A stretch of 64,000 bases of DNA from Caulobacter sp. FWC26. Lineage in GTDB: Bacteria > Pseudomonadota > Alphaproteobacteria > Caulobacterales > Caulobacteraceae. Each line of letters opens with the position of its first letter. Positions within the stretch are counted from its first letter, which is position 1. The notes beneath the pieces were generated by a model. The model made no database searches, had not been told where the DNA came from, and saw nothing but the letters and a program-made list of their open reading frames with translations. The translations under genes were made by a program, and so were the position numbers. Below, one piece after another: positions 5,733 to 28,323 of this stretch. Location of the stretch: NCBI RefSeq assembly GCF_002742645.2, contig NZ_CP033875.1, positions 3,636,001 through 3,700,000 on the forward strand, read 5' to 3'.

Positions 5733-5894
5733 CTGAACTCCCCCGAGGAAGTGACATGTAGGTCGACGGATGGGGGCGAAAGCATGTCCACTATGGGTCG
5801 CAAGTACGCTTTGACTGCGGCTCGGATTCCGGACCTTCAGCCCCTGACCCGCCGGGCTCAGGCACAGCCACCATGCTCTCGCCCTGACTGCGGG

Positions 5895-6290
5895 TTAGCG
5901 CTGCGGCTTGGTGTAGGGAACAAACACCCCCAAGCTGACAAAGCCCCTGGGGAAATACGACAGCGGATCGACCAGCTCCACGGCGTCCGGCGCGCAGAGC
6001 TCTCCCGAAACGGTGCGGGTGAGCAGGATGTCGGACTGGCGCAGCGACGAGGCGCCCGAACGCGGGCGGTTCACCAGCAGGCGGCCGCCGGGCATCTCGT
6101 AAACGATCGCCACGCCGTCGATGACCTCGCTGCTGCGGACGTCGCGCAGGCGGATGCAGTCGACCGGCTTGCCGGCCGTACGCCCCTCCAGCCGCTGGGC
6201 CAGACGGGCCTCCCCGGCCGGATTGGCCAGAGCGCTCGACGCCGCCGCGAGCGCCGCGATCACGACCACACCGCGCAGCATCGAACCCAT
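5895..6290 (-). CDS. Small exported hypothetical protein downstream of ispG
   Basis: A 131-aa protein starting MGSMLRGVVVIAALAAASSA, a typical signal peptide ending at ALA. The mature part has two Cys (one in DCIRLRD, one in GELCAPDA) that could form a disulfide. The start at 6290 is set by GGAGAGG a few bases upstream; the longer frame only adds Arg-rich residues from inside ispG. It begins 10 bases after the ispG stop, so the two are probably cotranscribed. The DCIRL...SEVIDGVAIVYE pattern recurs in alphaproteobacterial hypothetical proteins; the function is unknown. Confidence 0.7.
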   Translation of the reverse strand: MGSMLRGVVVIAALAAASSALANPAGEARLAQRLEGRTAGKPVDCIRLRDVRSSEVIDGVAIVYEMPGGRLLVNRPRSGASSLRQSDILLTRTVSGELCAPDAVELVDPLSYFPRGFVSLGVFVPYTKPQR

Positions 6291-6300
6291 CGCGCCTCTC

Positions 6301-7452
6301 CTATTCCGCGGCGACCGTCTGGGCCGCCTCGTCCTGAGCCTTCGCGGCCTGGATCTCGGCCGCCTTCTTCTCAACGAGTTCGACGATGTGATCGATCATC
6401 CCCTCGTTGGATTGTTTGTGGTCGGGCTTGCCGGCCATGTAGACCATGCCCGCGCCGGCCCCGCCGCCGGTGAAGCCGATGTCGGTCATCAGCGCCTCGC
6501 CCGGACCGTTGACCACGCAGCCGATGATCGACAGCGACATCGGCGTGGCGATGTGGGCCAGGCGCTCTTCCAGGGCCTCGACCGTCTTGATGACGTTGAA
6601 GCCCTGTCGCGCGCATGACGGGCAGGCGATGATGTTGACGCCCCGGTGGCGCAGGCCCAGCGACTTCAGGATGTCGAAGCCGACCTTGATCTCCTCGACC
6701 GGGTCGGCGGCCAGGCTCACGCGGATGGTGTCGCCGATGCCGGCCCACAGCATCGAGCCGATGCCGATCGAGGACTTGACCGTGCCGGTGCGCGTGGCCC
6801 CGGCCTCGGTGACGCCCAGGTGCAGCGGGCAGTCGATGGCCTCGGCCAGCTGGTAGTAGGCGGCCACGGTCAGGAACGGGTCGGACGCCTTCACCGAGAT
6901 CTTGAACTCGTGGAAGTCGTGGTCCTGCAGGATACGGGCGTGGTTGAGCGCGCTCTCGACCATCGCCTCGGGGCACGGCTCGCCGTACTTTTCCAGCAGC
7001 TCCCGTTCCAGCGAGCCGGCGTTGACGCCGATCCGCATCGAGCAGCCGTGGTCGCGGGCGGCCTGGATGACCTCCCGCACGCGGTCGGGCGAGCCGATAT
7101 TGCCCGGATTGATCCGCAGGCACGCCGCGCCGGCCTGCGCCGCCTCGATGCCGCGCTTGTAGTGGAAGTGGATGTCGGCCACGAGCGGAACCTTGGCCTC
7201 GCGGGCGATGGTCTTGAACGCGGCCGTGCTCTCGACGTCCGGGCAGCTGACGCGGACGATGTCGGCGCCGGCCTCCTCAAGCTGTCGGATCTGCTCCAGC
7301 GTGGCCTTGGCGTCGCTGGTCAGGGTGTTGGTCATCGACTGCACCGAGATCGGCGCGTCGCCGCCCACCTCGACATTGCCGACGCGGATCTTGCGCGATT
7401 GCCGGCGCGTGATCATGCGCCAGGGACGGACGTGCGTGTGGTCTGCGGCCAT
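6301..7452 (-). CDS. ispG: 4-hydroxy-3-methylbut-2-en-1-yl diphosphate synthase (GcpE)
   Basis: Reductively converts MEcPP to HMBPP in the MEP isoprenoid pathway, using a [4Fe-4S] cluster. The 383-aa length fits the bacterial enzyme. A TIM-barrel N-terminal part contains [12 protein letters not shown] and [11 protein letters not shown]. The C-terminal part carries the cluster cysteines in [12 protein letters not shown] and in [10 protein letters not shown], with the third-ligand and Glu pattern intact. A small exported-protein gene follows in the same direction. The C-terminal Ala/Glu-rich tail (about 25 residues) is dispensable-looking. Confidence 0.96.
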
Positions 7453-26620: not shown

Positions 26621-27012
26621 GTGTGTTGTGTCTTTCAAGCGCCGAAAAACAGCGCATGCGTTCCTCGCACGGCTGGCCTGTCGGCTATCGTTCGGGGGAG
26701 CGCCCCGCGTGCACGGGCGATCGGTGAGAAAAGCTCTCAAGGCGCTCGACAGGCTGGCCCGAAAACGGACCCTCACGCGGCTGGAGCGCCAATAGCGCCG
26801 GAGTGGCGCGAGTGGGTGTATCGGTTATCCGAGTAGGAAAGTCAAGTTTTGAGAGCGGCGGCGGCTTTACCGCAAACTCGACGCACCTCGCGCAAATGGT
26901 TAATAACGCTTAACCTCAAAAGCTGAGACTCAGGCGATGTTGGAGCGTTGTGACGGGAGTTGATTGGCTTGGTAAGCCAATCGGTGTTTCAAAAGCCGCA
27001 AGGGAATCGCCG
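26621..27012. other. Gene-free region between rhlE and the retropepsin module
   Basis: 392 bases between two divergent genes. The part next to rhlE is probably its promoter and a leader; such helicase genes often have long cold-regulated leaders. An AT-richer stretch with GTTAATAACGCTTAACC is at 26907-26925. A perfect 9-bp hairpin lies at 26962-26982. I find no credible ORF. Confidence 0.5.
26962..26982. promoter_or_regulatory. Perfect palindrome upstream of the small partner gene of the retropepsin
   Basis: GATTGGCTT, GGT, AAGCCAATC: nine perfect pairs around three bases, 30 bases before the start at 27013. It could be an operator for a dimeric repressor or an RNA hairpin in the leader. No T-run follows. 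Confidence 0.45.
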
Positions 27013-27276
27013 ATGACCATCCTTCGAGACGACATCGCCGCATTCGAAAAGATGCGCGCGGAATTAGAGGCCGCTCATGCCAAGGAGTGGGTTGTCATCC
27101 ATGGTGGCGAGCTTCAAGGCGTTTTCAATGACTTCGAAGAAGCGGCCACGCTTGCCGTGGAGCGTTTCGGGTCAGGGGCTTGCCTGATTAGGCAGATCGG
27201 CGCGCCAGCTGCAATCCAGCTGCCGGGTGGAATGATTTTCACGCCTTCGCATGCCCTCAGCGCAAGCCGGGTTTAA
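27013..27276 (+). CDS. Small protein paired with a retropepsin-like protease
   Basis: An 87-aa protein: a helical N-terminus (FEKMRAELEAAHAKE), a beta-rich middle (WVVIHGGELQGVFNDFEEAA) and SGACLIRQIGAPAAIQLPG. The middle resembles DUF5678-type small proteins, but this is only by eye. AAGGGAA upstream of the ATG supports the start. Its last 26 bases overlap the protease gene in another frame, which implies coupled expression in a fixed ratio. Candidate roles are adaptor, inhibitor or substrate of that protease. Confidence 0.72.
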   Translation: MTILRDDIAAFEKMRAELEAAHAKEWVVIHGGELQGVFNDFEEAATLAVERFGSGACLIRQIGAPAAIQLPGGMIFTPSHALSASRV

Positions 27277-27706
27277 AGCCGGAAGGGCAGGCGCGTCCCC
27301 AGCCGATCTGCTCGTGCAACTCGGCCCGACGTTGTTGGTCGACATAGGCTTGAAGTCCCAATCGCCACCGGGCGACAAGCCTGATCTGCCCAAAAAGAAG
27401 GTCAAAGCGCTGATCGACACCGGAGCAGGTGGTGACTGCATCGACGATGATCTCGCCCGCTCGCTGGGGCTTCCGATAACCGATGAGGGCGAAATCAGCG
27501 GTGTTGGCGGCCGCCATTGGGCCTACATCTATACTGCCCGCATCTACATTCCGAGCCTGGAGCGGCTCCTGTTTCAACCCTTCACCGGGGTCAAGCTTCA
27601 GCGGGGCGACCAGTGGCATGGCGTCATACTCGGACGGTCGTTCCTGCGTGGATACAAGCTCGCGTACAATGGCGCTGACGGAAGCGTATCGGTCGATGCG
27701 CTATGA
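27251..27706 (+). CDS. Retropepsin-like aspartic protease
   Basis: A 151-aa protein. KVKALIDTGAGGDCIDDDLA is a clear aspartyl-protease active site (D-T-G-A followed by the expected hydrophobic, helix-forming residues), and GVILGRSFLRGYKLAYNG matches the second hydrophobic-Gly motif of retropepsin folds (usually ILGRDFL). With a single active-site Asp it must dimerise to be active, like viral retropepsins. No signal peptide or membrane segment, so it is cytoplasmic. Codon use is less G/C-biased than in surrounding genes. Bacterial members of this group are poorly studied and the substrate is unknown. Confidence 0.82.
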   Translation: MPSAQAGFKAGRAGASPADLLVQLGPTLLVDIGLKSQSPPGDKPDLPKKKVKALIDTGAGGDCIDDDLARSLGLPITDEGEISGVGGRHWAYIYTARIYIPSLERLLFQPFTGVKLQRGDQWHGVILGRSFLRGYKLAYNGADGSVSVDAL

Positions 27707-27766
27707 CGGATCAATTTCACGCCGCCTAGATTGACCCACGCGCCGCCCCGCGCCAAACCGCCCCCA

Positions 27767-28171: not shown

Positions 28172-28323
28172 CCGCGTTCTGGCGTGACCAGTCCGGCGCG
28201 ACGGCGGTCGAGGTCGGGGTGATCGTGGTGCTGATCAGCATCGCCCTGATCGGCGCCATGACCGTGCTGAGCGACGGCATCAAGACCGCCTTCACCAAGT
28301 CCGCCGACGCGATGGGCAGCTAA
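28168..28323 (+). CDS. Orphan Flp/PilA-type pilin-like protein with a CTG start
   Basis: A 51-aa protein resembling Flp pilins: a short leader ending in SG, then ATAVEVGVIVVLISIALIG (cleavage G|A with Glu at +5) and IKTAFTKSADA, close to the end of Caulobacter PilA. No ATG, GTG or TTG exists in this frame before the leader; the only possible start is CTG at 28168, overlapping the mutT stop as CTGA, or re-initiation after mutT. No other pilus gene is nearby. It could be a minor pilin or a decaying copy. Confidence 0.7.
   Translation: MTAFWRDQSGATAVEVGVIVVLISIALIGAMTVLSDGIKTAFTKSADAMGS

Follow-up and report, generated by a model that had tools for sequence, protein, structure and literature searches.

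The DNA analysed here, a 64,000-nucleotide stretch of the genome of Caulobacter sp. FWC26 (positions 3,636,001–3,700,000 of contig NZ_CP033875.1; hereafter the window), carries at positions 27013–27706 two overlapping genes that, judging from sequence comparison, constitute an accessory, laterally moving unit. The second gene encodes a 151-residue protein that is identified by its motifs and predicted fold as a retropepsin-like aspartic protease (clan AA, A2-like). The first encodes an 87-residue protein, hereafter the partner, which appears to be a remote relative of the DUF5678 type, although not a member of that family by the cut-off. We propose, with moderate confidence, that the pair is an intracellular homodimeric retropepsin controlled by a co-translated partner, plausibly via the partner's tail.

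Results

The partner gene (27013–27276, plus strand) starts with the ATG at 27013 and ends with the stop codon 27274–27276, and the protease gene (27251–27706, plus strand; ATG 27251, stop 27704–27706) starts inside it, the two sharing 26 bases (27251–27276, plus strand) in different frames. These coordinates bear out a sequence-only reading made earlier of this DNA, which had described an 87-residue gene overlapping the gene of a DTGA protease by 26 bases. An in-frame GTG at 26950 could extend the partner to 108 residues, but the ATG is also the start used by most of the listed relatives. Such overlapping or abutting genes are consistent with translational coupling in which the partner is synthesised first. 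The host genome (4.87 Mb in three contigs) holds a single copy of the protease.

A programmed gag-pro-like frameshift fusing partner and protease was also considered, since many partner genes of the close family have NTT-TAA or NTT-TAG at their stop, the protease lying in the +1 frame. We rejected it because the stop lies earlier in two loci (L034, L038) and because the start region of the protease is conserved even where the overlap is minimal (L012). The fixed position of these stops follows from the G-F-K/R codons of the protease.

The assignment of the protease derives from several concordant observations. The catalytic motif DTGA (27416–27427, plus strand; residues 56–59) lies within LIDTGA (residues 54–59), as in the clan AA pattern Xaa-Xaa-Asp-Thr/Ser-Gly-Ser/Thr/Ala, and downstream of it ILGRS (27626–27640, plus strand; residues 126–130) supplies, with ILG (126–128), the hydrophobic-hydrophobic-Gly motif of the psi-loop. 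DTGA and the G-R of ILGRS are invariant across 14 aligned protease sequences. The protein scores above the cut-offs of PF13975 (29.7 against 28.2 bits) and PF13650 (25.9 against 24.3 bits) and below those of the NCBIfam models TIGR02281 (clan_AA_DTGA; 15.1 against 57.95 bits) and TIGR03698 (clan_AA_DTGF; 24.2 against 57.35 bits), and both the predicted model and its fold matches point to a single-lobe retropepsin fold. Thus, the retropepsin-type protease suggested by the sequence-only reading holds up. Its best named match, at 91% identity, is a protein from a metagenome-assembled genome of Caulobacter segnis. By eye, the sequence shows no membrane segment. Such a protease would work inside the cell as a homodimer to which each subunit contributes one Asp, and proteolytic activity would be expected of it.

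The partner by itself matches no family, and DUF5678 (PF18929) gives no match to it at E up to 1. Its profile retrieves 4,501 proteins at E 1e-3, and among the 120 matches listed, three (P0172, P0175 and P0176) carry a precomputed DUF5678 annotation. When 50 aligned relatives of the partner are scanned, 13 hit DUF5678 at E 1 or below (best 2.9e-4); the runner-up family is hit by 2. The partner encoded on the viral contig L093, with a retropepsin lying downstream, exceeds the DUF5678 cut-off (28.8 versus 23.2 bits), and a Leptospira phage partner also matches, short of the cut-off (E 0.0065). The profile is also matched by proteins of 163–181 residues (P0167–P0181, P0211), about twice the length of the partner, which are perhaps duplicated partner domains.

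In its predicted structure the partner folds as helix-strand-strand-helix-strand with a mean predicted local distance difference test score (pLDDT) of 80.6, and shows no predicted structure past residue 61, mean pLDDT in the tail being 71 (residues 61–70), 59 (71–80) and 52 (81–87). Within this tail lies a conserved hydrophobic motif, L70-P-G-G-M-I-F76 (27220–27240, plus strand); among 50 unweighted sequences L70 is kept in 40 and P71 in 44, and positions 74–76 are hydrophobic in 86–92%. The tail (LPxxMIF) could plausibly fill the substrate groove of the protease as a pseudosubstrate. Retropepsins accept extended, often hydrophobic sites, and the same features, namely a conserved, hydrophobic tail devoid of predicted structure on a protein whose gene comes first, would also suit a substrate: the protease would trim the tail, and the trimmed partner would be the active product. 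We regard this as improbable, as the tail is short, its letters vary between branches, and loci with the partner only exist.

Conservation is not confined to the tail. The core residues L58, I59, R60, A44, A48 and W26 are conserved at least as well, as would be expected of an adaptor whose core binds a target and delivers it to the protease, the tail merely docking on the latter. A SEC-C motif at the end of two viral-contig proteases (L089 and L093), which may serve in targeting, and the joint action of RimB with RimK, as described in PMC11957791, point the same way. However, there is no target to name, and partner-only loci would require another role. Sequence cannot distinguish adaptor from inhibitor, and we consider the adaptor unlikely. 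Among inhibition, substrate delivery and partner cleavage, we weakly favour inhibition.

The linkage between the two genes was followed across genomes, with proteases recognised by a profile that was derived over two rounds from the families themselves and includes some of the scored loci. In Caulobacteraceae, 21 partner matches occur in 20 of 390 genomes, and all 21 have a protease open reading frame (ORF) directly downstream, a count that includes one protease split over two frames (L028) and one partner cut by a contig end (L038). Across the class, 14 of 289 genomes gave 16 match rows, and 10 loci are left once the FWC26 genome and four long ORFs of unrelated type (L021–L024) are excluded; an intact protease follows in three (L012, L015, L016), a broken protease or by-eye remnant in two (L020, L025), none in four, and one stops at the contig end (L019/L026). 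Duplicate records are L002, L005 and L033, L003 and L030, L004 and L028, and L006 and L036. When 142 genomes of the class were searched with DUF5678, a single match came up, below the cut-off, at a locus (L027, 302–3067) where three partner-protease pairs stand in tandem. A search started from the protease gave matches in 7 of 199 relatives: four of these have the partner (G000, G038, G105, G172), and three are weak matches within longer proteins, with no partner. At the end of the partner, or just behind it, the protease frame is open; exact starts are established for part of the loci.

The distances between partners correlate with those between proteases (r 0.93 over 30 pairs), also within the mid group (r 0.80, 9 pairs); the correlation in the close family is not significant (r 0.30, p 0.10, 10 pairs). 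The search for co-occurrence upholds the joint conservation of the pair, on which the sequence-only reading had staked its proposal. Gene order and adjacency persist over the whole span between Caulobacter and a Leptospira phage, even where the proteases share about 25% identity, and amid different neighbours, and the unit is either absent or present as two genes together. Both observations speak against two genes that share their transcription and have no functional contact, a view which we consider highly improbable even though partner-only and protease-only cases exist and we infer the interaction itself.

Several lines of evidence mark the pair as an accessory and mobile unit. Its GC content at third codon positions (partner 0.63, protease 0.695) is below the minimum of 0.777 among 46 crudely called window genes (mean 0.894, standard deviation 0.041), and the codon-adaptation index of both genes is under that of all 46. 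The foreign codon style that the sequence-only reading had noticed in the partner is thus confirmed, though it is not a property of the partner alone, the protease being likewise affected. In 25 of 27 loci the GC content of the pair is lower than that of its flanks. We compared the site with the 15 best loci, beside our own, from a search of 41 same-genus genomes. In all 10 relatives that could be aligned on both sides (a DEAD-box helicase and MutT, named from their sequences) the pair is absent and the gap measures 22 to 691 bp; for the nearest relative, with a MutT of 99% identity, it is 116 bp. The other five align on the MutT side only. The unit occurs in assemblies of Caulobacter and Phenylobacterium, at other places than here, and in phage genomes, and the neighbour families listed around it were almost all seen once.

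The slot between helicase and MutT (window positions 26851–27729; relatives L059–L068) is itself variable. Nothing is evident in six relatives (22 to 210 bp), and another ORF is present in three, of about 200 residues in L060 and of about 150 residues and secreted-looking in L061 and L066. The slot of L064 contains an apparent decayed copy of the L061/L066-type ORF, and several slots carry a GC-rich palindromic repeat (cctcccccgc...gcgggggagg) that by eye resembles a repetitive extragenic palindromic element. After the MutT gene, at about 28182–28323, a short stretch (DQSGATAVEVGVIVVLISIALIGAM...) resembles a Flp-type pilin.

Phage copies were found only via the alignments or with a remote relative as query; the window's own protease has no match in phage records and none by close search in viral contigs. 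The partner alignment retrieved 10 viral contigs, of which five (L052–L056, L055 and L056 being the same pair) have an adjacent protease and one a protease remnant by eye (L049), and a second partner scan added one contig (L078), cut directly after the partner. The protease alignment likewise retrieved 10 viral contigs, with a partner upstream in eight: those of L053–L056 and the new L088, L089, L090 and L093. In the pair contigs covered by the viral neighbour scan (L052, L053, L056), an exonuclease (L052, L053), an integrase and a repressor (L053, a temperate-phage contig) and a RecT-like protein (L056) stand beside the pair; a terminase (L051) and a Sak4-like protein (L050) stand beside partner-only copies. 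In L050 the gene after the partner resembles an XRE-type regulator. The SEC-C motif ends the proteases at 5890–6447 (L089) and 5905–6492 (L093).

In KF114880, a Leptospira phage, the partner, recorded as a hypothetical protein, is followed by an unannotated protease frame, the end of which is overlapped by a short annotated call in another frame; a portal-like gene comes next. With the remote protease as query, 22 phage records matched, three of them with at least 80% coverage, all from Leptospira phages, and the pair was inspected in one. Plasmids gave no match for the window's protease, its partner, the 941-bp region or the proteases of two relatives. For the L093 protease there are matches in 35 plasmid records, all with less than 80% coverage; the 15 matches listed are short or partial, and the annotated ones are mostly SecA or other metal-binding proteins.

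Upstream of the pair lies a possible promoter or regulatory element that the sequence-only reading had missed, TTAAC-N12-GACTC (26910–26931, plus strand), in which GACTC is a GANTC site, recognised by CcrM. Of 11 loci in the close family, which share ancestry, 7 have TTAAC-N12/13-GANTC at positions around −91 to −105 relative to the ATG, and a second GANTC stands at −8 to −10 in 7 of 11. In the window, the latter (GAATC) is overlapped by a putative Shine-Dalgarno-like AAGGGA (27000–27008, plus strand). The pattern TTAACN{6,20}GANTC has one match in the window, where chance gives a mean of 0.86, and is not in excess genome-wide (36 places versus 47 for the reversed control); the case for the element is therefore its conservation. 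As for GANTC sites as such, the 11 × 150 bp upstream of the pair hold 20, and the 4,547 bp that precede 36 other genes of the window hold 5. In Caulobacter, conserved GANTC motifs in promoters accompany methylation-linked genes (PMC3973325; for GcrA, PMC3667746), and our genome contains three GcrA-family matches over the cut-off (C3:3060749, C3:1678405 and C1:53796). Regulation of the pair by CcrM or GcrA would fit these observations. The third of these matches sits on contig C1, outside the main contig.

The perfect 21-base palindrome reported by the sequence-only reading just upstream of the pair (26962–26982) is real as an inverted repeat, yet consists of two perfect 9-base arms around a 3-base spacer. 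The window contains 21 perfect inverted repeats whose arms are 9 bases and whose spacers are 0–8 bases long, versus 2–12 in 12 simulated sequences; with the spacer set at 3 bases it contains 2, versus 0–2. By eye, the repeat upstream of the pair is not preserved in any of the 10 other upstream regions compared in the close family. Since it is neither rare nor conserved, it carries no evidential weight, and we rejected it as an operator.

With regard to defence, 69 of 71 crudely called neighbouring ORFs were scanned against PADLOC at E 1e-5. They match 39 PADLOC families, of which 25 are listed with one member each, and housekeeping functions are in the majority among the 25 of 60 neighbour families listed. 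Single matches to AbiEi (E 4.5e-75), PDC-S35 (3.6e-68) and a TIR effector (Pfam CAP12-PCTIR; 2.8e-38), not necessarily distinct proteins, look real, while those to RmuC, DNA polymerase A and a response regulator look like housekeeping. The scan had no control set, and we thus claim no defence enrichment. The window's protease matches PDC-M08B weakly (E 6.8e-5), the strongest match to that model being the partnerless L092 protease (E 3.3e-7); the window's partner is unmatched in PADLOC, and none of 12 partner-type proteins matches the PDC-M08 models.

These data bear on a setting akin to toxin-antitoxin or anti-phage systems, in which the partner neutralises a toxic protease that is unleashed on infection. 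The small partner encoded first with the protease frame open at or right behind its end, the patchy and mobile occurrence, the integrase and repressor adjoining the pair in a temperate-phage contig, the AbiEi, PDC-S35 and TIR-effector neighbours and the PDC-M08B match would agree with it. Against this stand the weakness of the PDC-M08B matches, the best of them partnerless, the lack of PDC-M08 matches among partners, the mostly housekeeping neighbours and the conserved upstream GANTC sites, which suggest ordinary host regulation in Caulobacteraceae. This setting overlaps with control by a bound partner, which it specifies further, and we hold it to be doubtful though worth considering. The stress or defence role envisaged by the sequence-only reading may apply, in that patchy spread and phage copies fit it, but the PADLOC results and the neighbours do not add to it. 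An accessory spread shared with phages is nonetheless compatible with a role in phage conflict.

Discussion

Our data are most readily accommodated by control of the protease through a bound partner. The partner, a small regulator, would be translated just before the protease, probably coupled to it through the overlap, and would most likely bind and control it. Loss or displacement of the partner in response to a signal would then unleash the protease on one or a few host or invader proteins. Dimerisation, activity, binding and the inhibitory role of the tail are what we infer, and likewise the trigger, the target and the benefit.

Several observations weigh against this proposal. The structure predictions were single-chain models, which include no partner-protease complex; an artificial one-chain model gives the tail a mean pLDDT of 46 (residues 71–80) at a predicted template modelling score of 0.66, and the relative placing of its halves carries no weight. 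No fold in the PDB matches the partner (best E 1.5), and its fold therefore offers no functional hint. In the LIRHT branch the tail differs, reading APF or similar. The weak close-family correlation means that no fine co-evolution is demonstrated. Furthermore, four of the 10 class loci (L013, L014, L017, L018) have no protease within roughly 1.5 kb, four of the 10 viral contigs from the partner alignment are partner-only (L048, L050, L051, L057), and the protease occurs without a partner in two of the 10 from the protease alignment (L091, L092).

Another protease of Caulobacter, PerP, is periplasmic and acts on PodJ. It is likewise named as a retroviral-type aspartic protease in PMC4140852, and is set apart from the present protein by description, not by sequence. 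As for the retropepsin-like APRc (RC1339) of Rickettsia conorii, it is described as embedded in the membrane, whereas the present protease has no membrane part apparent by eye and is co-encoded with a small partner. The Pseudomonas retropepsins RimB and RloA, described in PMC11957791 and PMC12239564, are also encoded with genes of their pathways. Their partners are the ATP-grasp protein RimK, or RloB and RloC, whereas here the partner is an 87-residue DUF5678-type protein; moreover, RloA is secreted, unlike the intracellular protease proposed here. By analogy, the pair resembles bacterial retropepsins acting with partners, such as RimB with RimK (PMC11957791); identity with RimABK is not claimed, the gene overlapping the protease encoding 87 residues only and no RimK search having been made. 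DUF5678 is a family without known function, which relatives of the partner match and the window's partner itself does not. The PADLOC candidate PDC-M08 shares with the pair a B component weakly similar to the protease, and no tested partner matches it.

In the portions of the open-access literature available to us, we found no paper on the partner-protease pair, retropepsin work on phage or antitoxins included; PDC-M08 likewise gave nothing, and DUF5678 led to unrelated work. The undescribed system that the sequence-only reading had anticipated is therefore best regarded as a variant, itself undescribed, on the theme of bacterial retropepsins and not as a new enzyme class.

Going further, DUF5678-type proteins might quite generally be cognate inhibitors or sensors of intracellular retropepsins, forming a widespread, phage-borne 'loaded protease' that serves in conflicts between phage and host or between phages. 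Infection or stress would displace the tail, and the freed homodimer would cut an essential host or phage protein. We offer this extension as speculation that is quite unlikely to hold in full.

In summary, few bacterial retropepsins have been studied and their control is mostly unknown. The pair from Caulobacter sp. FWC26 presents a compact unit with a built-in candidate regulator and offers an initial clue to the function of DUF5678. Should the partner prove to be a natural inhibitor, this would represent a new mode of control for retropepsins, which are enzymes of medical interest.
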